From Candidatus Accumulibacter aalborgensis (GTDB lineage: Bacteria > Pseudomonadota > Gammaproteobacteria > Burkholderiales > Rhodocyclaceae), in the NCBI RefSeq assembly GCF_900089955.1, contig NZ_FLQX01000095.1, positions 1-64,000 of the forward strand: a stretch of DNA of 64,000 nucleotides. The letters run 5' to 3'. Shown piece by piece: positions 2,305-62,895 of the stretch. Each line of letters opens with the position of its first letter. Positions within the stretch are counted from its first letter, which is position 1. Below the pieces are notes generated by a model. It was not told the DNA's origin and made no database searches. It saw only the letters and a list, made by a program, of their open reading frames with translations. The position numbers were made by a program, and so were the translations under genes.

Positions 2305-4944
<2,640 letters not shown>

Positions 4945-24673: not shown

Positions 24674-24734
24674 CCGAGCGAAGGGCTGCGCATCGATGGC
24701 TATCGATGCGCTTCCTGCTTCAACACCCTACCGG
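24674..24734. repeat. REP-like palindromic element, second copy
   Basis: GCGCATCGAT (24688-24697) and ATCGATGCGC (24702-24711) form a perfect ten-base stem with a four-base loop. Read on the minus strand, GTAGGGTGTTGAAG precedes it and GAAGCGCATCG is shared with the element near 2060. The stop codon of the adjacent nucleotidyltransferase gene (TAG, 24728-24730) lies inside the element, and the hairpin could act as its transcript end. Confidence 0.5.
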
Positions 24735-25840
24735 CTGATCGTCAGCGCCTTGCGGGCCAGGTGCGGAATCAGCAAAGAAGGCGGCATGCGCAACCAATGG
24801 CTGCGCACGTAGAGCTGCCAGCGGGCCAGTGCCGTGAGACGGTCCGAGGTGGTGGCATGCGCCGGCCGCAAGGCGCGCAGGAAGAGCGAATCCATGAAGG
24901 CCAGAAACGCTCCCGGCTGGCGACCACCCGGAGCATTGACTGCCGCCTGCACGACGGATTCGGGCAGCGGCGTCCCCAGCATCAAGTTTGCATAACGCAG
25001 GGCATAGAACAGGGGCCGCGACAATTCCAGTTCCACAGCGCGCGGAACGAGCACCTGCCAGAAAGCATCGGCCGTCCCGAAGTGGCGCAGGAGACTGTCG
25101 ATGTCGACCAGATCGCGCAGCCCATGCGCCAGTTCCCCTTCCTGAAAAAGGTGCGTGGCGCTGTGCAGGAGCATATCCTCTGGCGCCAGGACCATGATCC
25201 TGCCGTCGAGTTTGTCGAGTTCATCGAGTTCATTGACTGCGACCGGGAGTGCCGCCGCCAACAGTTTTTCGGAGCTCGGATGCCAGCGTGCCGATAGCGG
25301 CAGAATGGCGTGGTGCACATCGATCACCGTGCCTCGCCGAAAATGCCGCATGGGCGGCAATTCATGCATCCAGGTACGATAATAGCGCTGGTCGTAGGCA
25401 CTCTTGGCTTCGGAAACCCAGCCCTTCATCATCAGAGCCGACTCGACCGCGACCAGGTGTTGGCGTGGAACGAGGATGTCCACGTCGGAAACCATCCGCC
25501 CTTCGGCGGCCGGCAGTTCGGCAACGGCGTAAGCGGCACCCTTGAGCAGGACGACCGGCAGTCCGGTCGGTGCCAGTGCGTCGGCGATCTGCTCGACTTC
25601 CCAATACACTTCCCGCCGCTGGCGCAAGGCCAGCTTGGCCGCCGCTTCGAGATGGCGGCGGGGCCGGGCGGGAATCTGCTCCAGCAAGGCATGCGCGGTG
25701 CACACGGAGGCGATACGTGCCAGCAGGTCGGCGTTGCGCCCCTGTCGGATGAGCAAATCCCATTGCGCTGCATCGAGCTGCGTCAGCCTCGTCGGGGCCA
25801 ACAAGGCATCGACCAGCAAATCGATCGCCGGCAAGTTCAT
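24728..25840 (-). CDS. Nucleotidyltransferase-like protein of the HPr-rel-A cassette
   Basis: The 370-residue protein belongs to the uncharacterised nucleotidyltransferase group (NTP_transf_5 type). The pol-beta-like core is seen as VVLLKGAAYAVAEL (Lys100-Gly101) followed by GRMVSDVDILVPR, with the metal-binding pair Asp119 and Asp121. It may transfer a nucleotide to a protein or peptide; the substrate is unknown. It is last in a four-gene minus-strand run and overlaps the kinase gene by four bases. Similar nucleotidyltransferases accompany HprK-like kinases in some peptide-modification clusters, including phosphorylated lasso-peptide clusters, which guides the inference. Confidence 0.8.
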   Translation of the reverse strand: MNLPAIDLLVDALLAPTRLTQLDAAQWDLLIRQGRNADLLARIASVCTAHALLEQIPARPRRHLEAAAKLALRQRREVYWEVEQIADALAPTGLPVVLLKGAAYAVAELPAAEGRMVSDVDILVPRQHLVAVESALMMKGWVSEAKSAYDQRYYRTWMHELPPMRHFRRGTVIDVHHAILPLSARWHPSSEKLLAAALPVAVNELDELDKLDGRIMVLAPEDMLLHSATHLFQEGELAHGLRDLVDIDSLLRHFGTADAFWQVLVPRAVELELSRPLFYALRYANLMLGTPLPESVVQAAVNAPGGRQPGAFLAFMDSLFLRALRPAHATTSDRLTALARWQLYVRSHWLRMPPSLLIPHLARKALTISR

Positions 25841-26751
25841 GGCGGCAAAGGCAGGCGGTCAAAGACCTCGATTGCTTCCGCCAGCCGGCTATAGGTGAAG
25901 TCATAACAGTCGCTACGGGCGACCAGATCCGAAAGCGCTTCGAAGCCAGGCCGGCCATGCACATTCTGGTTGAAAGAGTTCTCTGCCAGTTGCATGAAGC
26001 CTTCGCTCTTGGCGCGTGCTACCAGACGGGCAGGTGACTCGGGTAGATAGCGGGGGAAGATCAGCCAGCCAGGCAAGGCCGGTTCGGCAGCACGGGCCAG
26101 GCTGTCGGACGGAACGCGCATATGCGCGACCGTACCCTTCATGGTGTCACGCGCCAGCGGTCCAAAGATGGCGTGCGGCGCCAGTTGACGGATTATTTCG
26201 ATGGACTGGTTCTTGAGGCTCACCGGGCGTGGCGCAGGCAGAATCAGTCCCGTGCGCGGATCGAGCAGGGCCATCTCGTCCGACAGCAGGCGCCAGCCGT
26301 TGAGGAGCAATGCCGCACACAGGGTGCTCTTGCCCGATCCCGGAGGCGCGGGCATGATGAGCACGCGTCCGTGGCGCTCGAGCACTGCCGCATGAATGCT
26401 GATCAGCGTGTGACAGTAGCCGGTGACGCACCAGTTCAGCCCCCATTCGAGAAAGGCAAAAGCCTCGCCCACCGCCAGCGGCGTAAATGGCCGCAGCCCA
26501 TCCATCTCGAAAACACAGAGGGCCTTCGGAAAGCGCCGACCGTAGACTACGGCGACATGAAAATCGGCGAAAGTCCCGTCGCTCGGCAGCAACTCGTACT
26601 CGGCGTAAAGGGTGGCGAGTCCTTCGCCGACGATCGGAATCGGGCTTCTGATACGCGCGGTGAAAGGGGGTATCCGTAAACAAACGCCTTCGCTGCCAAG
26701 GTGCCGCCTGAGAACATCCCTCGGGACGCTGGCCAGAGTCGGTGCGGTCAA
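25837..26751 (-). CDS. HprK-related kinase (HPr-rel-A type)
   Basis: The 304-residue protein resembles the catalytic domain of HPr serine kinase. ISIHAAVLERHGRVLIMPAPPGSGKST carries the conserved His120 and a P-loop at residues 135-143, and LLSDEMALLDP follows as the acidic motif. The N-terminal 100 residues are not the HprK regulatory domain. No HPr or PTS gene is nearby, so the target is unlikely to be HPr. The PqqD-like gene upstream suggests the substrate is a peptide or small protein, perhaps the secreted protein at 27047. Overlaps of four bases on both sides show tight coupling. Confidence 0.85.
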   Translation of the reverse strand: MTAPTLASVPRDVLRRHLGSEGVCLRIPPFTARIRSPIPIVGEGLATLYAEYELLPSDGTFADFHVAVVYGRRFPKALCVFEMDGLRPFTPLAVGEAFAFLEWGLNWCVTGYCHTLISIHAAVLERHGRVLIMPAPPGSGKSTLCAALLLNGWRLLSDEMALLDPRTGLILPAPRPVSLKNQSIEIIRQLAPHAIFGPLARDTMKGTVAHMRVPSDSLARAAEPALPGWLIFPRYLPESPARLVARAKSEGFMQLAENSFNQNVHGRPGFEALSDLVARSDCYDFTYSRLAEAIEVFDRLPLPP

Positions 26752-27047
26752 TCCGGCAAACGTTCGATAAGGCTCAGCGACTGGAAACTGGCGAGAGCAT
26801 TCGCCACCAGTTCGATGTCCTCAGCAGCGGGGATTTCACCGAAAATCCGCTGGGCGAGCGTGCACGACGTCCACTCCGGGGTATCCAGAAACAGGGCCAT
26901 CATGCCACCTGCGGCAGGGGTAAGGCGCTGCAACTGGCCGTTGGCTTCGTCAAAGAGAACCGAACCGTCGGGCCAATTGCGTAGGGCGAAATCCGCTCTG
27001 CGGCGGCAAACCCAGCGTTCGTCACGCCGGGAAGTGTTCAGGCTCAT
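26748..27047 (-). CDS. PqqD-like peptide chaperone (HPr-rel-A system)
   Basis: The 99-residue protein starts at ATG 27047 (MSLNTSRRDERWVCRRRADF). LFDEANGQLQRLTPAAGGMMALFLD is the typical PqqD-fold line: a short beta segment, a charged turn, then 'hydrophobic-LTPAA'. In RiPP pathways this fold binds the leader peptide and presents it to modifying enzymes. Its start overlaps the stop of the secreted-protein gene (TGATG) and its stop overlaps the kinase start. This order puts the likely substrate first, then chaperone, kinase and nucleotidyltransferase. Confidence 0.75.
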   Translation of the reverse strand: MSLNTSRRDERWVCRRRADFALRNWPDGSVLFDEANGQLQRLTPAAGGMMALFLDTPEWTSCTLAQRIFGEIPAAEDIELVANALASFQSLSLIERLPD

Positions 27048-27724
27048 CAGCCGTAAATGTATTTGAAGTAGGCCAGTGTTTCCGTCAGGTCCCAGTTGGC
27101 GCCGGTGAATGGCGACCATGTGCCGCCTCCGGCGAGGCTCATCCAGAGCGTGCGGCACTGGGCTTGCGTCAGCAGAACGGTTTGCGGATTGTCACCGTAT
27201 TGAACCGCCGTCAGGAAGGTGGCGACGGTGTTTCTCGCCAACTCATTAAAGCTTCCGCCACTCAGTTCAAGTATCTGCTGCAGTGTCTTGCCCGAAAAAG
27301 TGCCGCCCGGATTGCCCGAGAAACCTGCCGATACGGACCCGCTCGCGCCTCGCGGGACGCCAAGAAAATAAGAGGTAGCCTTGTTGCCGTAGGGAGCGGG
27401 AAACGGTTGGTTTTTCCAGTAGCCGTGCGAAAAACACGTGAAAGTCTCGACCGCATGGCTGACCGTCGTATTGGCCTGAAGGGACGCAAAGGCCGAAGCT
27501 TTGATGCAGATATCCGCTGCCAGCACCGATCGGCTCTTCAGTGCCATGAGCACGGGTGCCGCCGCCAGGCCGGCACGCATCAACCGACGCCGGCCATCGG
27601 ACGTGCCGGCGGTCATGGTCGAGGTTTGCACCCCTGTCGCGAGGCTCTTGGCGTCCATTGGCAATCGCTCCTGCTGCCCTGCCGCTTGGCGCTGCTGGCT
27701 TGGTTCCGACTGAGTTGTTGACAT
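27047..27724 (-). CDS. Exported GYWKN-motif protein, candidate substrate
   Basis: The 225-residue protein (ATG 27724) has a polar N-terminus of about 44 residues rich in Ser, Thr and Gln. A twin-arginine-like signal follows (GRRRLMRAGLAAAPVLMAL, residues 44-62), with a likely cut near SVLAA/D. The mature part has three cysteines (73, 97, 190), the motif CFSHGYWKNQPFP around residues 97-109, and a Gly/Ser-rich middle, and it ends YFKYIYG. The GYWKN motif occurs in various secreted proteins of unknown function. As first gene of the cassette behind a sigma-54 promoter match, it is the obvious candidate substrate of the downstream enzymes; that role is inferred only from position. Confidence 0.7.
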   Translation of the reverse strand: MSTTQSEPSQQRQAAGQQERLPMDAKSLATGVQTSTMTAGTSDGRRRLMRAGLAAAPVLMALKSRSVLAADICIKASAFASLQANTTVSHAVETFTCFSHGYWKNQPFPAPYGNKATSYFLGVPRGASGSVSAGFSGNPGGTFSGKTLQQILELSGGSFNELARNTVATFLTAVQYGDNPQTVLLTQAQCRTLWMSLAGGGTWSPFTGANWDLTETLAYFKYIYG

Positions 27725-55373: not shown

Positions 55374-57506
55374 ATGACCGCCAACGCCTTCCATAACATT
55401 GCACAGGTAGAAACCAGCCTGTGGGAGGCCGCCGACCAGCTCCGCGCCAACTCAAACCTCACCGCCACCGAATACTCCATGCCGGTGCTCGGCGTCATCT
55501 TTCTGCGCCACGCCACCAATCGCTATCAGTTCGCGCTGCAAGCCATTGAAGCGGACCAGGCCGCAGGCACCATGCCCCAGCGCCCACTGGTCAAGGCCGA
55601 CTTCATCAAGCGCCGTGCCCTCATGCTGCCAAAGGCCGCGCGTTATGACGCCCTGCTCAACCTGCCCGCCGGTGCCGATCTGGGCGGCGCACTGGTGGCC
55701 GCCATGAACGCCATCGAGGCGGACTTTCCTCCGTTGACCGGCAGCCTGCCCAAAGACTATGACCGTTTTGACAACAAGCTGCTCGAAAATCTGCTGCGTT
55801 GCTTCGACTCCCAGGCCCTGCGCAGCGCGACGGGCGACGTGTTTGGCCGCATCTACGAATACTTCCTGATGAAATTTGCCATGCAGGGAGCGCAGGACAA
55901 CGGCGAGTTCTTTACGCCGCCGTCGCTGGTGCAAACCCTGGTCAACGTGATCGAACCCGATCACGGCGTGGTCACTGACCTGGCCTGTGGCTCGGGCGGC
56001 ATGTTTGTGCAAAGCAGCCACTTCATCGAGCAGGAAGGCTTTGAGACGATGAAGCGCGTCACCTTCTATGGCCAGGAAAAAACCCCGACGACCATCCGCC
56101 TGGCCAAGATGAACCTGGCCGTGCACGGCCTGGAAGGCGACATTCAGGAAGCCAACACCTTCTACCAGGACGAACACCGCCTGCCAGACGGCCGCCCGCT
56201 GTGGGGCAATGTCGACTTCATGATGGCCAACCCGCCGTTCAACGTGGACAAGGTCGATGCCGAATCGATCAAGACCGACCGTCGCCTGCCCTTTGGCCTG
56301 CCCGGCGTCAACAAGGACAAGCAGGTCTCCAACGGCAACTACCTGTGGATTTCGTACTTTCACAGCTACCTGTCGCCCACCGGCCGCGCCGGCTTCGTCA
56401 TGTCGTCGCAGGCCAGCAGCGCCGGCCATGGCGAAAAGGAAGTGCGGCGCAAGCTGGTGGAAACCGGCGACGTGGACGTGATGATTGCCATCCGCTCCAA
56501 CTTCTTCTACACCCGAACCGTTCCCTGCGAGCTGTGGCACTTTGACCGCGCCAAGCCGAAAGCGCGCAAGGATCAGGTGCTGATGCTCGACGCGCGCAAT
56601 GTGTACCGCAAGGTCACGCGCAAGATTTACGATTTCTCACCAGAGCAGCAGGCCAACCTGTCGGCCATTGTCTGGCTGTACCGTGGCCAGCAAGAGCGCT
56701 TTCTGGGGCTGGTGCAAAGCTACATCACCCGCCTCGGTACCGAGGCCGCCGCCGTCGATGAAGCGCTCACCGTGTTTGACGCCGCGCTGACGGCCAGCAG
56801 TACGCCGCTGGCCGCATTCGTGGACAGCGTCAAGGCCATCGAAGCCCTGCAGCAAGACAAGCGACAAGTCCTTGTTGATGCCATGGGCGAGTGGAGCAGC
56901 GCCGCTACTGCCTATGTCGCCGACCGTTCCGCCCTGGTGACCAAACTGGCGGCGTTTTGCCATAGCGTTGCCAAACCTCCGCAGACCAATAGCGCCCAGC
57001 ACGCCGCCCGCCAGGCCTTCGGCCCGCTGGCCGAGTCCGCGCGAGGTCTGGTCAAGCAGATCGACCTGCTCTACAAGCTGGCCGCGCGCGCCGCGCACCT
57101 GGCGCAAGAACTCGCCGTGCAGGAGGATGCCGCCGAGTTTTTCGACCGCCGCGCCGTCGGCAAGCTCACCAGGCAGCTCGACGAAGAACGCAAGTCCGCT
57201 GTCGAACAGCTCAAGGACTGCGCCTACCTGCACCGCCAGATCGTCTGGCTGCACGAGCGCTTCCCCGATGCGACGATGCAGGACGTGCCTGGCCTGTGCA
57301 AAGTCGTCACCCACGCCGAGATCGAAGCCGCCGACTGGAGTCTGACCCCCGGCCGCTTTGTCGGCGTGGCTCCTGCCGAGGTGGATGAGGATTTCGACTT
57401 CGAGAAAACATTGCGCGATATCCACCTGGAACTGGCCGATCTCAACCGCGAGTCGGTGGAATTGGCAGCGAAGATTCAGACCAACTTTGAGGAGTTGGGG
57501 GTATGA
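55374..57506 (+). CDS. hsdM: Type I restriction-modification methylase subunit HsdM
   Basis: HsdM methylates adenine in the site chosen by HsdS. The 710-residue protein has an N-terminal helical domain (SLWEAADQLRANSNLTATEYSMPVLGVIFLRHA), SAM-binding motif I DLACGSGGMFVQS near residue 202, and catalytic NPPFNV at about residue 286. FFTPPSLVQTLV lies just before motif I. The last about 250 residues are a long helical, coiled-coil-like extension, making it longer than classic EcoKI-type HsdM. Its stop overlaps hsdS (ATGA). Confidence 0.94.
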   Translation: MTANAFHNIAQVETSLWEAADQLRANSNLTATEYSMPVLGVIFLRHATNRYQFALQAIEADQAAGTMPQRPLVKADFIKRRALMLPKAARYDALLNLPAGADLGGALVAAMNAIEADFPPLTGSLPKDYDRFDNKLLENLLRCFDSQALRSATGDVFGRIYEYFLMKFAMQGAQDNGEFFTPPSLVQTLVNVIEPDHGVVTDLACGSGGMFVQSSHFIEQEGFETMKRVTFYGQEKTPTTIRLAKMNLAVHGLEGDIQEANTFYQDEHRLPDGRPLWGNVDFMMANPPFNVDKVDAESIKTDRRLPFGLPGVNKDKQVSNGNYLWISYFHSYLSPTGRAGFVMSSQASSAGHGEKEVRRKLVETGDVDVMIAIRSNFFYTRTVPCELWHFDRAKPKARKDQVLMLDARNVYRKVTRKIYDFSPEQQANLSAIVWLYRGQQERFLGLVQSYITRLGTEAAAVDEALTVFDAALTASSTPLAAFVDSVKAIEALQQDKRQVLVDAMGEWSSAATAYVADRSALVTKLAAFCHSVAKPPQTNSAQHAARQAFGPLAESARGLVKQIDLLYKLAARAAHLAQELAVQEDAAEFFDRRAVGKLTRQLDEERKSAVEQLKDCAYLHRQIVWLHERFPDATMQDVPGLCKVVTHAEIEAADWSLTPGRFVGVAPAEVDEDFDFEKTLRDIHLELADLNRESVELAAKIQTNFEELGV

Positions 57507-58669
57507 GTTGGGGCTGGCCGAGCGTCAAGATCGATTCGATCAGAGCTAACACGCGGTATTCCCTTGTTGGTGGACCTTTTGGCTCAAACCTCACCACTCG
57601 TGACTATGCCGATGATGGGGTGCCCGTCATTCGGGGTGCCAATCTTCCAGAAAAGGGCGGGTTTGAGGATGGCGGGTTTGTTTTCGTTACAGACGACAAA
57701 GCAAATGCGTTGACTGCAAACTTGGCACACCCTGGCGACATCGTATTCACTCAGCGTGGAACATTAGGGCAAGTGGGCATCATTCCTGCAACTGCGTCCT
57801 TTCAACGATACTTGATATCGCAGAGTCAGATGAAGCTGACGGTCAACGAAGAGATTGCCAATGCTCGATTTGTCTACTACTTTTTTCGGCATCCGAACAC
57901 TGTGCAAGAAATCAAGAATCGTTCTATTACATCTGGTGTGCCACACATCAATCTCGGAATACTGAAAAACTTCAAGATTCCTCTTCCAGCACTCCATGTT
58001 CAGGGTGCGATTGTTGAAATCCTGTCCACCTACGACGACCTGATCGAAAACAACCGCCGCCGCATGGCCCTGCTCGAAGAGTCCGCCCGGCAACTTTACA
58101 GCGAATGGTTCGTCCGCCTGCGCTTCCCTGGCTATGAGCACACCCCTATCGTCGATGGCGTGCCGCGGGGGTGGGAGCGCGAGACGCTGGGTGAGTCGAT
58201 CACGCTAAACTATGGCAAGGCGTTGAAGGCCGAAATTCGTGTCGAAGGCGACTATGCTGTTTACGGTTCCAGCGGCATCGTCGGAACTCACGAAAAGCCC
58301 TTGGTCCAAGGCCCTGCCATTATCCTGGGCCGCAAGGGAAACGTCGGTAGCGTCTATTGGTCCAGCAAGAGCTTCTACCCCATCGATACCGTTTATTTTG
58401 TGAGTACCGAAAGCAGCAGCCTGTACCTTTTCTATGCGCTGAAGAATATGCACTTCATCAGCACAGATGTCGCAGTTCCCGGTCTCAACCGCGATTTTGC
58501 GTACAGCCGACCGCTATTGCAGCCGCCACCACCATTGCTGCGTGCCTTCCATGAAACGGTCGGACTAATTCATGCGCAACTGGATAAGTTAAATGAGGTA
58601 AATCAGAAACTCCGCGCCGCACGTGACCTGCTGCTACCGCGCCTGATGAGTGGAGAATTGGCGGTATGA
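57503..58669 (+). CDS. hsdS: Type I restriction-modification specificity subunit HsdS
   Basis: HsdS gives the DNA target of the type I enzyme. The 388-residue protein has two target-recognition domains. The first covers about residues 1-165 (VGGPFGSNLTTRDYADDGVPVIRGANL onward) and the second about residues 210-360. Each is followed by a conserved helix, QGAIVEILSTYDDLIENNRRRMALLEES and then DKLNEVNQKLRAARDLLLPRLMSGEL. The first recognition domain is visibly more AT-rich than hsdM, as is common where these domains are exchanged. It overlaps hsdM and the next gene by four bases each. Confidence 0.93.
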   Translation: MSWGWPSVKIDSIRANTRYSLVGGPFGSNLTTRDYADDGVPVIRGANLPEKGGFEDGGFVFVTDDKANALTANLAHPGDIVFTQRGTLGQVGIIPATASFQRYLISQSQMKLTVNEEIANARFVYYFFRHPNTVQEIKNRSITSGVPHINLGILKNFKIPLPALHVQGAIVEILSTYDDLIENNRRRMALLEESARQLYSEWFVRLRFPGYEHTPIVDGVPRGWERETLGESITLNYGKALKAEIRVEGDYAVYGSSGIVGTHEKPLVQGPAIILGRKGNVGSVYWSSKSFYPIDTVYFVSTESSSLYLFYALKNMHFISTDVAVPGLNRDFAYSRPLLQPPPPLLRAFHETVGLIHAQLDKLNEVNQKLRAARDLLLPRLMSGELAV

Positions 58670-59184
58670 GCCCGCGAATCATCATCATCGCTGGCCCCAA
58701 CGGCGCGGGTAAAACCACGTTTGCCCGCGAGTTTTTGCCCTTTGAGGCGGACTGCCCCATCTTCGTCAATGCCGACCTGATCGCCGCTGGCATTGCGCCG
58801 TTTCAACCTGAAACCGTGGTGTTTCGGGCGGGCAGGCTGATGCTGCAAGAGCTGGCGCACCATAGCGCCGAGGGGTGCAGTTTTGCTTTTGAAACCACGC
58901 TCTCGGGCCGCTCCTACGCGCCCATGATCGACACCTGGCGTGCCAACGGATATACCGTCAAGTTGATCTTCCTGTCACTGGCCTCAGCCGACGAGGCTGT
59001 CGCCCGCGTCGCCAACCGCGTTCGCCAGGGCGGTCATAACATTCCGACTGAGACCATTCGCCGCCGTTTTGAGTCAGGCCTGATTCATTTCCGGGACACC
59101 TATCGACACCGAGTCGATTTCTGGCAGTTGTTTGACAATAGTGGCGATAGCCCACTGCTGATAGAAGAAAGAGCCAATCCATGA
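58666..59184 (+). CDS. Zeta-toxin-family P-loop kinase
   Basis: The 172-residue protein has a Walker A loop IIAGPNGAGKTTFAREFLP (residues 7-25). It continues with FVNADLIAAGIAPF, SFAFETTLSGRSY, and VRQGGHNIPTETIRRRFESGL with the conserved arginines, the pattern of zeta-toxin-like kinases. Classic zeta toxins phosphorylate UDP-N-acetylglucosamine; chromosomal relatives are less well known. It sits between hsdS and hsdR, overlapping hsdS by four bases and the following small gene by four bases. Confidence 0.85.
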   Translation: MSPRIIIIAGPNGAGKTTFAREFLPFEADCPIFVNADLIAAGIAPFQPETVVFRAGRLMLQELAHHSAEGCSFAFETTLSGRSYAPMIDTWRANGYTVKLIFLSLASADEAVARVANRVRQGGHNIPTETIRRRFESGLIHFRDTYRHRVDFWQLFDNSGDSPLLIEERANP

Positions 59185-59393
59185 GTGCTGCTTTGACACC
59201 CCCCAACCGTTCCCAACTCCCCGATGCCGACATGCAGGCGGTACCTGTCGCCCTGGCTCGTGCCGCCCAACGCGCCCGTGAGATTGCCATTCACACAGGC
59301 ACGCCCTTGGTGGTTACCCGCGACGGCAGATTGATCGAAGTGGTTCAACCCGAACTCGCAAAACCCATGGACGGTGTTTCGCCAAAATATTGA
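59181..59393 (+). CDS. Small putative antitoxin paired with the zeta-type gene
   Basis: The 70-residue product starts MSAALTPPNRSQLPDADMQA. It has ALARAAQRAREIAIHTGTPLVVTRDGRLIEVVQPE, with the helix-then-hairpin style of small antitoxin-like proteins found beside zeta-type genes. Its ATGA start overlaps the toxin stop, so the pair is translated together. Note the toxin-first order. The antitoxin role rests on position and size. Confidence 0.6.
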   Translation: MSAALTPPNRSQLPDADMQAVPVALARAAQRAREIAIHTGTPLVVTRDGRLIEVVQPELAKPMDGVSPKY

Positions 59394-59487
59394 GACGGTA
59401 GCGCACAGCATGATTGATTCGGCGCAAAAGCCTGCCGCTCCACTGGTTTCGATCCAAATCTGAGCCCATAGCGAACCTATAGAACCC

Positions 59488-62400
59488 ATGGCCTACACCG
59501 ACATCAACGGCGAAGACCGACTGGTACAGGCGACCTTCGCCGAGCATTTGGCGTCGGTACTGGGCTGGGACAGCATCTATGCCTGGAACCAGGAAATCTT
59601 TGGCCCGACTGGCACCCTGGGCCGCATCAACGAACGTGACGCGGTGCTGGTGCGCGACTTGCGCACGGCGCTGGTCAAGCTCAATCCGCAGTTGCCGCCC
59701 CCGGCCATTGAAGAAGCGATCAGCAAGCTCACGCGCCACGACTTTTCGCGCTCGCTGCTGCAACACAATCAGGCGTTTCACAAGCTGATCCGTGACGGCG
59801 TTCCGGTGAGCTACCGCAACGCCCGAGGGCAACTGAGTCACGCCCAGGCGGCGGTGATCGACTTTCGCACCGCCGCCAACAACCGCTTTCTGGTGGTTCG
59901 CGAACTCAAGCTGACCGGTCTGCGCACGCCCAACTACAACCGCCGGGCCGACCTGGTGTGTTTTGTGAACGGTTTGCCACTGGTTTTCATTGAACTCAAA
60001 GCCGTCTACAAAAACATCCGCGCTGGCTTTGACGGCAACCTGCGCGACTACATGGACGAAAACGTGGTAGCCCATGCCTTCCACCACAACGCCTTCCTGA
60101 TCGTCAGCAACGGGCATAACGCCCGCTTTGGCTCGATCACCAGCACCTGGGAACACTTTGCCGAATGGAAACGCCTGCATGAAAACGAGGTGGGCAATTT
60201 GGCTGCCGAGGTGTTGCTCAACGGCATGCTGGCCAAAGACCGCTTGTTGGACATTGTGGAAAACTTCATTCTGTTCGATGCCAGCAAGGCGGGTGGCACG
60301 CGCAAGATCATGGCGCGTAACCACCAGATGCTGGGCGTGAACCAGGCGGTCGCTTCGGTGGTACGGCAAGAGACCTTGAAGCGCGAATTTCCGACTGGCC
60401 AACGACTGACCCATCGCACTATCGAACTGCCGTATTTCGAGGCTGAAAAGGCGGCCAACGAGGCGCAACGGTGCCACCCGATCGCCGCCGAACCCGCGCC
60501 ACGGCATCTGCAAATCATCGAACGCGCGCACCCGGACCTTGGCCGCCTGGGTGTGGTGTGGCATACGCAGGGCAGCGGCAAGTCGTATTCGATGGCCTTC
60601 TTTGCCGAGAAGGTGCGGCGCACGGTACCGGGCAATTTCACCTTTGTTCTGATGACCGACCGCGACGACCTGGACAGCCAGATTTACAGGACCTTCATCG
60701 GCTGCGACGTGGCCGACGAGCAAACACCGCGGGTCAGCTCGGGGCGCGAGCTACAGCGGCTGCTTTCGGAAAACCATCGCTATGTGTTCAGCCTGATCCA
60801 CAAATTCAACCAGGAAGTCACGCCCGATTCTCCGTATAGCGAGCGCGACGACATCATCGTGGTCTCCGACGAGGCGCACCGTACCCAGTCCGGCAGGTTG
60901 GCCCGCAACATGCGCATGGCGCTGCCCAACGCGGCCTTCATTGGTTTCACCGGTACGCCACTGTTCAAGCACGACCAACTGACCAAACGCATTTTCGGCG
61001 ACTATGTGTCGCGTTACGACTTCAAGCGCAGCGAAGAAGACGGTGCTACCGTCAAGCTGGTCTATGAGAACCGGGGCGAGAAACTGGGCCTGGCCAAGCT
61101 TGACCTGAACGACCGGATTGCCGACGCCGTAGACACTGCCGATCTCAACCCCGATCAAACCGCCTTGCTGGAGAAGCTGCTGGGCAAGGACTACGAAGTG
61201 ATCACCGCCGATGAGCGACTGGACCGAATAGCCACTGATTTTGTCGAGCATTGCAGCACCCGATGGGAAGCCGGCAAAGCCATGCTGGTGTGCATCGACA
61301 AGATCACCTGCGCCCGCATGCTCAAGCTGATTGGCCCGAAATGGAAGAGCAAAGCTGTCGCCGTGCGGTCTGAAGCCCATTCCAGGCTGGCGGCGATCGC
61401 CGTAGCCGCCGATGACGAAGCCCGCCACGTGCTGCATGCGCAACGCGACCGGCTACTCGCCAAGGCGGCGTGGATGGACGAAACAATCATCGAGCTGATC
61501 ATCAGCGAAGCGCAAAACGAAGTGGCTGATTTCAAGCGCTGGGGCTTTGACATCATCCCCCACCGCTCGGTCATGAAGCTGGGGTTTGAAACCGCTGACG
61601 GCCTGCGCGTCGATGTGGAAACCGCGTTCAAGAACCCCAAGCACCCTTTCCGCATTGCCATGGTGTGCGCCATGTGGCTCACCGGGTTTGACGTGGAATG
61701 CCTGGCTACGCTCTACATCGACAAGCCGATGCGCGCGCATACGCTGATGCAGGCCATTGCCCGCGCCAACCGGGTGTACCCCGGCAAGGACTTTGGCCTG
61801 ATTGTGGACTACAACGGCATGCTCAAGAGCCTGCGTGAAGCACTGGCGCAGTACGCGCTGGGTGACGACGGTGGCGAAGCCGAGATTGTCGCGCCGATCG
61901 AAGAACGCGTCGCGGCGCTGGCCGATGCCATTGCCGTCACCGAGTCCCACTTGTGCAGCCTGGGTTTTGACGCCAACAGCCTGCTGGGCAGCAAAGGGTT
62001 CACCCGAATCCAGTTTCTGGCCGATGCGGTCGAAGCCGTGTACACCAGCGACGAATCCAGACGCCGCTATGAAATCCTGGCGCGGGTGGTGTTCAATCGA
62101 TTCAAGGCGTTGCTGGTCGAGCCTTCGGCGCTCCTGTATGCCGAGCGCCATGACAACATCGAGGCTATCTACAAAAAGCTGGGTGAACGGCGCGACACGG
62201 CGGATGTGACGGAACTACTCAAGCTACTGCACCGCATCGTCAACCTGGCCATCGCGTCGCACGGTGCGGGTATCGACCAGGCCAGCGGTTTGACGGTGGA
62301 CTTGTCGCAGATCAACATGGAAAAACTGTGCGACGAGTTTGCCAAGAAAGTGAAGCACAAGGCCACGTTGATCGAGGACATCCGCCAGATTGTGGAAGAA

Positions 62401-62895
62401 AAGCTGGCCCAAATGCTGGCCCGAAACCCGCTGCGCATGAACTACGAGAAGAAATACCAAGAAATAATCGCCGCCTACAACCAGGACAAAGACCGGGCCA
62501 CGGTGGAAGACACGTTCGCGAAGTTGATCGACCTGGCCAACAGCCTGAATGACGAGCAGCGCCGCGCATTGGACGAGGGCTTGAGCGAAGACCAACTGGC
62601 GCTCTTTGACCTCGTGCAGCGAGATGATTTGAGCAAAGTAGACCGTGAACGCATCAAGCAGGCCAGCAAGGAATTACTGGCGGGCGTGCTGGCCATCATC
62701 GCGCCGCTAGACCACTGGACCGAGAAAGAACAAACGCAGGCCGAGGTGGAGACGTTCATTCTGGATCATGTCTACCAGGCGCTGCCGGAGCCGCCCTACA
62801 CTCCAGACGACAAAGCACAGGTGGCGCAGTTGGTGTATCGGCATATCTGGCAACAGAGTGTGCAGAATCAGTTTTTACACGCTGTCCCGGCTTGA
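59488..62895 (+). CDS. hsdR: Type I restriction enzyme subunit HsdR
   Basis: HsdR is the DNA-translocating and cutting subunit. The 1135-residue protein has an N-terminal nuclease domain with the E-x-K element FIELKAVYKN (Glu169, Lys171). The superfamily 2 motor follows: Walker A VVWHTQGSGKSYSM near residue 361, DEAH in VVSDEAHRTQSGR near 462, GFTGTPLF, and motif VI QAIARANRVYPGK. A C-terminal helical region binds HsdM. It lies 94 bases after the toxin-antitoxin pair and reads in the same direction as hsdM and hsdS, so the full system appears intact. Confidence 0.95.
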   Translation: MAYTDINGEDRLVQATFAEHLASVLGWDSIYAWNQEIFGPTGTLGRINERDAVLVRDLRTALVKLNPQLPPPAIEEAISKLTRHDFSRSLLQHNQAFHKLIRDGVPVSYRNARGQLSHAQAAVIDFRTAANNRFLVVRELKLTGLRTPNYNRRADLVCFVNGLPLVFIELKAVYKNIRAGFDGNLRDYMDENVVAHAFHHNAFLIVSNGHNARFGSITSTWEHFAEWKRLHENEVGNLAAEVLLNGMLAKDRLLDIVENFILFDASKAGGTRKIMARNHQMLGVNQAVASVVRQETLKREFPTGQRLTHRTIELPYFEAEKAANEAQRCHPIAAEPAPRHLQIIERAHPDLGRLGVVWHTQGSGKSYSMAFFAEKVRRTVPGNFTFVLMTDRDDLDSQIYRTFIGCDVADEQTPRVSSGRELQRLLSENHRYVFSLIHKFNQEVTPDSPYSERDDIIVVSDEAHRTQSGRLARNMRMALPNAAFIGFTGTPLFKHDQLTKRIFGDYVSRYDFKRSEEDGATVKLVYENRGEKLGLAKLDLNDRIADAVDTADLNPDQTALLEKLLGKDYEVITADERLDRIATDFVEHCSTRWEAGKAMLVCIDKITCARMLKLIGPKWKSKAVAVRSEAHSRLAAIAVAADDEARHVLHAQRDRLLAKAAWMDETIIELIISEAQNEVADFKRWGFDIIPHRSVMKLGFETADGLRVDVETAFKNPKHPFRIAMVCAMWLTGFDVECLATLYIDKPMRAHTLMQAIARANRVYPGKDFGLIVDYNGMLKSLREALAQYALGDDGGEAEIVAPIEERVAALADAIAVTESHLCSLGFDANSLLGSKGFTRIQFLADAVEAVYTSDESRRRYEILARVVFNRFKALLVEPSALLYAERHDNIEAIYKKLGERRDTADVTELLKLLHRIVNLAIASHGAGIDQASGLTVDLSQINMEKLCDEFAKKVKHKATLIEDIRQIVEEKLAQMLARNPLRMNYEKKYQEIIAAYNQDKDRATVEDTFAKLIDLANSLNDEQRRALDEGLSEDQLALFDLVQRDDLSKVDRERIKQASKELLAGVLAIIAPLDHWTEKEQTQAEVETFILDHVYQALPEPPYTPDDKAQVAQLVYRHIWQQSVQNQFLHAVPA

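Follow-up and report, generated by a model that had tools for sequence, protein, structure and literature searches.

The window, a stretch of 64,000 nucleotides from contig NZ_FLQX01000095.1 (C95) of Candidatus Accumulibacter aalborgensis, carries at positions 24728–27724 of its minus strand a cassette of four open reading frames (ORFs) that overlap by 1, 4 and 4 bases, in line with the initial annotation, which had listed four minus-strand genes joined by overlaps of 1–4 bases. They encode an exported-looking protein with a GYWK-type domain (P0001), a PqqD-like protein of the RiPP (ribosomally synthesised and post-translationally modified peptide) recognition element (RRE) type (P0002), an HprK-related kinase (P0003) and a nucleotidyltransferase-fold protein (P0004) (Table 1). 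Since the same four families adjoin one another in many genomes, their grouping is more than chance. Below, loci, genomes and contigs are cited by our own L, G and C numbers where they have to be told apart.

P0003 matches TIGR04352 with 364.9 bits (cut-off 200) and P0004 matches PF14907 (NTP_transf_5) with 190.3 bits (cut-off 31.2), which agrees with the HprK-like kinase and the nucleotidyltransferase of the initial annotation. Because both are over their cut-offs and the only NCBIfam match of P0002, below its cut-off, is TIGR04353, the enzyme trio already has a catalogue name: it is the NCBIfam “HPr-rel-A” set, in which we take the PF14907 nucleotidyltransferase neighbour to be a defining part, and for which no substrate is named. 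The earlier supposition of an uncharacterised system needs amending for the trio, on whose substrate the model names are silent. With a kinase well over the cut-off, a PqqD-like partner and a nucleotidyltransferase neighbour, the cassette resembles the catalogued set (TIGR04352/TIGR04353). The public annotation of a Sphingomonas plasmid copy also reads HPr-rel-A, and both plasmid cassettes that were opened carry the precursor, at whose position the annotated records give a “hypothetical protein”. A defence system was also considered and rejected, none of the four proteins having a PADLOC match at E ≤ 0.01.

In 44 aligned kinases, H120, K141, D158 and E159 are invariant. Among solved structures, the P0003 profile matches HPr kinases best (E 0.0022), with these invariant residues inside the alignment, and P0003 retains the His, the Lys and the first of the two Asp found in both HprK and the lasso-peptide kinases. 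Likewise, K100, G101, D119, D121 and D174 are invariant in 50 aligned nucleotidyltransferase-fold proteins (L099, L122 and L143 are left out of the enzyme alignments), and this family pattern fits an active nucleotidyltransferase core. The confident P0004 model (predicted local distance difference test, pLDDT, 94.9) has its best PDB fold matches, none better than E 0.0019, among nucleotidyltransferase-fold proteins, and profile matches of P0004 to PDB sequences begin at E 0.042; these matches are general and therefore fix neither donor nor acceptor. Finally, all 16 cassette PqqD-like proteins chosen for comparison, P0002 included, match TIGR04353 at E ≤ 0.01.

P0001 itself matches no Pfam or NCBIfam family at E ≤ 1. 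An assignment to a known family through its 53-row alignment (A1) was rejected, the matches being scattered and weak (best E 0.014 and 0.016), as was a known fold (structure model with a pLDDT of 77.8; nothing in the PDB matched better than E 4.6 by fold or E 0.59 by sequence). Moreover, the GYWK-type domain of cassette precursors has no clear match to a Pfam or NCBIfam model. A1 consists of 53 GYWK-type precursors hand-picked for spread from 89 references (among which there are a few doubtful ones); its mean column identity is 20% and its only invariant columns are R45, R46, S77, S81 and S89. The two arginines are followed by a hydrophobic stretch and a VLA-A end, a signal-peptide-like reading that points to the export of P0001, and S77 and S81 would be residues 8 and 12 of the core if cleavage follows A69. 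The initial annotation had singled out the N-terminal 44 residues for a test of binding by the PqqD-like protein; the conserved segment is instead the signal-like one starting with the arginine pair (RR), at residues 45–69.

Table 1. Positions in the window of the four cassette genes and of the conserved features of P0001
Feature	Position	Strand	Remarks
P0001, exported-looking precursor (putative substrate) with GYWK-type core, without named family	27047..27724	-	225 residues
P0002, PqqD-like (RRE-type) chaperone	26748..27047	-	99 residues; TIGR04353 match below cut-off
P0003, HprK-related kinase A	25837..26751	-	304 residues, TTG start; TIGR04352
P0004, PF14907 nucleotidyltransferase-fold protein	24728..25840	-	370 residues
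Conserved RR leader of P0001, R45–A69, Tat-like signal segment	27518..27592	-	R45 and R46 invariant in the 53-row alignment A1
Candidate acceptor motif of P0001, S77-A-F-A-S81 (S-x-hydrophobic-x-S)	27482..27496	-	S77 and S81 invariant in A1
S89, third invariant serine of P0001	27458..27460	-	alignment A1
G101-Y102-W103 of the P0001 GYWK domain	27416..27424	-	G101 and W103 at ≥90%

Precursor genes in the neighbourhood of the kinase

Profiles were built from the loci of relatives and from 80 named loci, then tested on later samples. The relatives, ranked by kinship, comprised 61 genomes, of which 35 have a kinase over the cut-off, and provided 34 loci besides the window; the named loci were the best 80 of 284. 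Six loci (L065–L070), which either fall short of the cut-off or are truncated at the end of a contig, are omitted from the locus tallies. In these sets, on which the profile was trained, a precursor-like ORF stands at 34/34 relatives’ loci and 80/80 named loci, and a PqqD-like gene at 33/34 and 80/80, respectively. Nearly all precursor matches of these first sets (115 of 117) share the strand of the kinase and are no more than 900 bases away from its ORF; the other two are a rearranged cassette (L064) and a match judged false (L069).

Out of sample, the precursor was found in the kinase neighbourhood at 38 of the 39 loci of the class level, the contig of the exception (L210) beginning just upstream. 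It was found at all 28 new loci used at the order level, out of 68 genomes over the cut-off, being downstream and cut in L265 and L274. At the phylum level (61 genomes over the cut-off, of which 56 were fetched, four were already in the other sets and one, G582, was truncated), it was found at 47 of the 56 loci, to which L325 and L328 were added by eye. Since loci of the same taxon are related to one another, locus counts are not counts of independent events. The initial annotation had named, as evidence against its proposal, homologous kinases that regularly lack the exported protein; this is not the pattern of these samples. The kinase also occurs beyond Pseudomonadota, at locus L142 of Malonomonas rubra (Thermodesulfobacteriota).

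In the converse direction, the GYWK-precursor profile matches 40 of 369 class genomes, and 34 of these 40 have a kinase over the cut-off (in one of the 34, G075, the match is a GYWK domain that lacks the leader and lies on another contig). Seven of the 41 class genomes with a kinase are left unmatched by this profile, their precursors being of other types or cut off. As to the six profile-positive genomes without a kinase over the cut-off, four owe their match to other proteins with a GYWK domain and no leader, and the remaining two have short leader-bearing peptides, in one case beside a divergent HprK-like kinase. In this last case (L340), a very short RR-leader peptide at 2434–2709 is adjoined by the kinase at 3287–4141 and by a PqqD-like ORF, while the other locus (L341) has two such peptides, at 3113–3346 and 3759–4016, in one stretch of 6.5 kb; possibly, a second lineage of kinases relies on this leader too. 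Genome G356 has a second leader-bearing precursor (L339, 3905–5110, minus strand), its cassette lying on another contig, and no cassette enzyme gene was detected in the 9 kb fetched around it. This protein is possibly a substrate served in trans; such a location away from the kinase would be predicted for a leader able to recruit the enzymes in trans.

A common leader, dissimilar cores and a serine motif

The features common to the precursors are an N-terminal RR segment, a hydrophobic stretch and, mostly (190/219), an A-x-A-like end. RR is present in 217 of the 219 anchored precursors, a count to be read with the fact that the anchoring step itself looks for Arg, and the pattern [ST]RRx-hydrophobic in 106 of them. 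The set leaves out L081, L147, L189 and the second piece of L122, as well as five unanchored precursors (L291, L313, L315, L319 and L326).

Behind this leader, the core types are mutually dissimilar. Most named relatives, like the window, carry the GYWK-type domain, and further core types besides those in the genus of the window are found in other classes of the phylum. Within the genus, a second core type occurs at 12 loci (L031 and L033–L043) and a third at 14 loci (L047 and L049–L061). Together with the window, these make up three unrelated cassette lineages in one genus, each with its own core type. The GYWK domain was considered as the defining part and rejected: it is absent from many cassette precursors and it occurs without the leader in other proteins (L342–L346). 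In these five loci it stands with neither RR leader nor cassette, in open frames of 207 to 1352 residues.

Motifs in the cores were sought by expectation maximisation (EM) from random seeds; the split into GYWK and non-GYWK cores and both regular patterns used below were defined post hoc, after viewing the sequences, and L090, being mis-anchored, was left out of these tests. In 59 non-GYWK representative cores, the EM search returned [ST][CA][WA]xS[FL], with the last serine of the motif in 97% and a log-likelihood of 249 (87–95 for three shuffles). In 32 of these 59 cores the best site is no more than 20 residues from the C-terminus, and in 22 it falls among the first 20 core residues (very short cores may count at both ends). 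A looser pattern, [ST]-x-hydrophobic-x-S, occurs among the first 28 residues of the core in 35 of the 44 GYWK representatives, vs. a mean of 9.8 and a maximum of 18 in 200 shuffles. Of the non-GYWK cores, 35/59 have it in the last 45 residues (shuffle mean 13.2, maximum 21), and 22/59 have it among the first 28 (shuffle mean 11.5, maximum 21). Finally, a strict pattern, [ST]C[WFYLI]xS[FLIV], is found in the last 40 residues of 52 of the 219 cores, many of them related, vs. 8 of 11,219 other ORFs of the loci, many of which are not genes.

Comparison with known systems

The closest studied system is that of the linear polyphosphorylated peptides (LPPs), a pathway of Bacillota in which the HprK-like kinase LppK phosphorylates a core serine (PMC13381572). 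There, precursors with one to four phosphates were observed, the phosphates being placed on core Ser3, and the substitution S3A abolishes the modification. Both systems cluster a discrete RRE, an HprK-like kinase and a nucleotidyltransferase, the RRE of the cassette being recognised through a weak PqqD-type match, and in both the precursors have a conserved N-terminus and a variable C-terminus. Moreover, the serine phosphorylated in LPPs is near the start of the core, as are the candidate serines of P0001.

A further likeness lies in the neighbours, LPP loci being often near polysaccharide loci (PMC13381572). Exosortase-A exopolysaccharide genes adjoin the cassette in 56 of 209 loci, a frequency that is without a formal baseline and is drawn from flanks of differing lengths; by set, these are 30/56 loci of the phylum, 21/80 named loci, 5/39 loci of the class and 0/34 loci of the genus and family level. 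Examples of such exosortase-A/PEP-CTERM neighbours (L071, L283 and L310) include PrsK, an amidotransferase and a TIGR03087 glycosyltransferase, and in the host genome PrsK is encoded on another contig than the window.

An SpI-like leader peptidase and an MsbA-like exporter belong to LPP clusters; neither was found among the four cassette genes or the four flanking genes searched (error-prone DNA polymerase, RimO, GlnD and methionyl aminopeptidase). LPP leaders have a YxxP motif where the cassette has an RR signal-like leader: P0001 has no Tyr or Trp before residue 102, and [Y/W]xxP occurs in 9 of 219 precursors in the region searched. The cassette has four genes and protein-sized cores and is found mainly in Pseudomonadota, whereas LPPs are described as confined to Bacillota (PMC13381572), and that paper makes no mention of Proteobacteria, Pseudomonadota, twin-arginine or Gram-negative. 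Owing to the lack of SpI-like and MsbA-like genes, to the lack of a YxxP leader and to this stated restriction, we did not file the cassette as an LPP system.

The parallel with phosphorylated lasso peptides drawn in the initial annotation is apt, that with LPPs being closer still. The kinases PadeK and PsmK phosphorylate lasso precursors, and in pseudomycoidin the kinase phosphorylates a serine while the nucleotidyltransferase PsmN is linked to the addition of hexose, a host glycosyltransferase being still possible (PMC9266682). With paeninodin and pseudomycoidin (PMC9266682, PMC7533575), the cassette shares an HprK-like kinase, a PqqD-like protein (B1), a nucleotidyltransferase and a serine as the (here candidate) acceptor. 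It differs in its large exported cores and in a candidate acceptor of P0001 that is not a C-terminal serine. A lasso peptide proper was rejected, since no B2 peptidase or macrolactam cyclase is present among the four cassette and four flanking genes searched.

A proposed pathway, its alternatives and its genomic setting

On the strength of the genes themselves, their conservation, their co-occurrence and the invariant residues, we consider it fairly probable that the cassette encodes a leader-guided pathway of serine modification whose one dedicated target is an exported protein, i.e., an LPP-like variant occurring mainly in Pseudomonadota. From these data we infer how binding, phosphorylation, a second modification, the twin-arginine translocation (Tat) route, cleavage and the order of the steps may go together. 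P0001 would be made with its N-terminal RR signal segment and presented by the PqqD-like P0002 to P0003, which would phosphorylate S77/S81 of the S-x-hydrophobic-x-S motif in the cytoplasm, before export. P0004 would then add to or cap the phosphate, with a nucleotide or a sugar, and the modified P0001 would be exported, probably by Tat (TatC is encoded elsewhere in the host genome), its signal being removed after VLA. Within the literature searched, where the papers listed dealt with lasso peptides or LPPs, the precursor was not found in print; to that extent, the assignment of a substrate, the portable leader and the invariant serines are new. A trio catalogued without a stated purpose thereby gains a likely substrate and single residues to examine. 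If the proposal is true, the RRE/HprK-like kinase/transferase chemistry known from small peptides of Bacillota would extend to the marking of entire exported proteins in many Pseudomonadota, where recognition would fall to a signal-like leader.

Several results weigh against this pathway. Regarding the enzymes, P0003 has Asp-Glu where the HprK of the host has Asp-Asp and where the lasso kinases are reported with a His-Lys-Asp-Asp motif (PMC9266682), and the nucleotidyltransferase LppN was without visible activity in the LPP study (PMC13381572). The sole NCBIfam match of P0002 (TIGR04353) scores 19.6 bits, under the cut-off of 35, and no PqqD-like gene was detected in L218, L313, L315 and L317–L319. 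At these six loci the precursor, the kinase and the nucleotidyltransferase are present. L218 has a weak PqqD-like match (E 0.068), and a Vibrio alfacsensis plasmid (NZ_CP140104; L331, 6712–6987, plus strand) has at the PqqD position an unannotated ORF of 91 residues that is PqqD-like by eye; a divergent PqqD-like gene may therefore be present in such cassettes. Regarding the leader, the Tat model TIGR01409 matches just 1 of the 53 precursors of A1 (E 0.073). Regarding co-occurrence, seven of the 56 phylum kinase loci remain without a visible precursor after inspection (L292, L293, L299, L306, L312, L316 and L330, of which L292 and L312 are near a contig end).

The serine motif has its own share of these counter-indications. 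Applied to the full set of 103 representative cores, and likewise to the 44 GYWK cores, the EM search returns [ST]PGYWK and not the serine motif, and 19 of the 103 cores are without the looser pattern near either end. A matrix built from 19 SCWxSF-type cores of other classes scores the GYWK cores at the edge of the shuffles (mean 1.70 vs. a mean of 0.90 and a maximum of 1.72 in 50 shuffles), with its best site in the first 30 residues of 17 of the 44 (shuffle mean 7.6, maximum 19). On the 40 other non-GYWK cores, the same matrix clearly gains in score (4.58 vs. a maximum of 1.07 in 50 shuffles), with no clear gain in site position. Because the EM search returns [ST]PGYWK and the transfer of the matrix is borderline, a link between the N-terminal and the C-terminal positions of the motif is only suggestive; it is carried mainly by N-terminal intermediates (SVWSSF, SCYASF and SVWASL) in relatives of the window protein.

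The alternatives differ in what they make of P0001 and of its serines. P0001 might be the substrate and yet be modified at a residue elsewhere, the serine motif being an element of docking or of folding that serves the kinase or the chaperone. The motif is modelled as a short helix next to the leader (residues 76–84), a plausible docking helix, and core types differ in its form and in how many serines are conserved. We nevertheless regard this as unlikely: the serines are conserved (97% in non-GYWK cores, two invariant in A1) while their neighbours vary, which fits a reacting hydroxyl better, and LppK modifies a serine at the same kind of place (PMC13381572). The trio might also modify a peptide or protein encoded elsewhere, P0001 and its kind being co-transcribed passengers or effectors of a different step, as the seven precursor-less phylum loci would allow (even if two are near a contig end). 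The co-occurrence and the placement of interchangeable cores behind one leader make this distinctly improbable, as does the finding that most class genomes with a precursor-profile match and no kinase (4/6) have leaderless domains in other proteins.

An HPr-type regulatory phosphorylation switch of the phosphotransferase system (PTS) family can, for its part, be given hardly any credence. In its favour, P0003 is a P-loop kinase of the HprK superfamily with the corresponding His/Lys/Asp pattern. The initial annotation had noted that no HPr or PTS gene is present, which is right for the contig of the window and wrong for the genome, where two HPr matches (C113 and C5) and a bona fide HprK (C135; 323 bits against TIGR00679) are found. 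This HprK is the single match of the TIGR00679 search of the host genome, with none on C95, and P0003 is just 28% identical to it over 109 residues. With HPr and HprK encoded elsewhere, the cassette kinase is an extra and not a missing part of the PTS; its partner is another one, its Asp-Glu replaces Asp-Asp, and P0001 has a signal-like segment and no match to the HPr family.

A wider version of the leader-guided serine-modification pathway is rather doubtful in our view. It would have the signal peptide double as a modification leader, so that a portable RR leader and a short serine motif mark unrelated exported proteins before their export in folded form. The kinase would act first and the transferase second, and P0004 may couple the phosphoserine to a sugar or polysaccharide precursor, which would give phosphodiester-linked protein–glycan conjugates in the extracellular matrix. 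A tag that a kinase directs to secreted proteins, often encoded beside exopolysaccharide genes, would raise the question of how matrix proteins are marked or attached.

In a midpoint-rooted tree, the kinase of the window groups with kinases of Comamonadaceae, being 71% identical to that of a Rhodoferax; it is at best 46% identical to the kinases of its own genus and 48% to the best locus compared within its family. This grouping with Comamonadaceae and not with its own genus suggests that the kinase of the cassette was gained by horizontal transfer. In the window, the cassette is flanked by the gene of an error-prone DNA polymerase on one side and by glnD on the other. Further along (55374–62895, plus strand) lies a type I restriction-modification-like set, with an HsdM-like protein (84.5 bits, below the cut-off), an HsdR (456.8 bits, over the cut-off) and an S-like ORF that has no NCBIfam match at E ≤ 1e-20.

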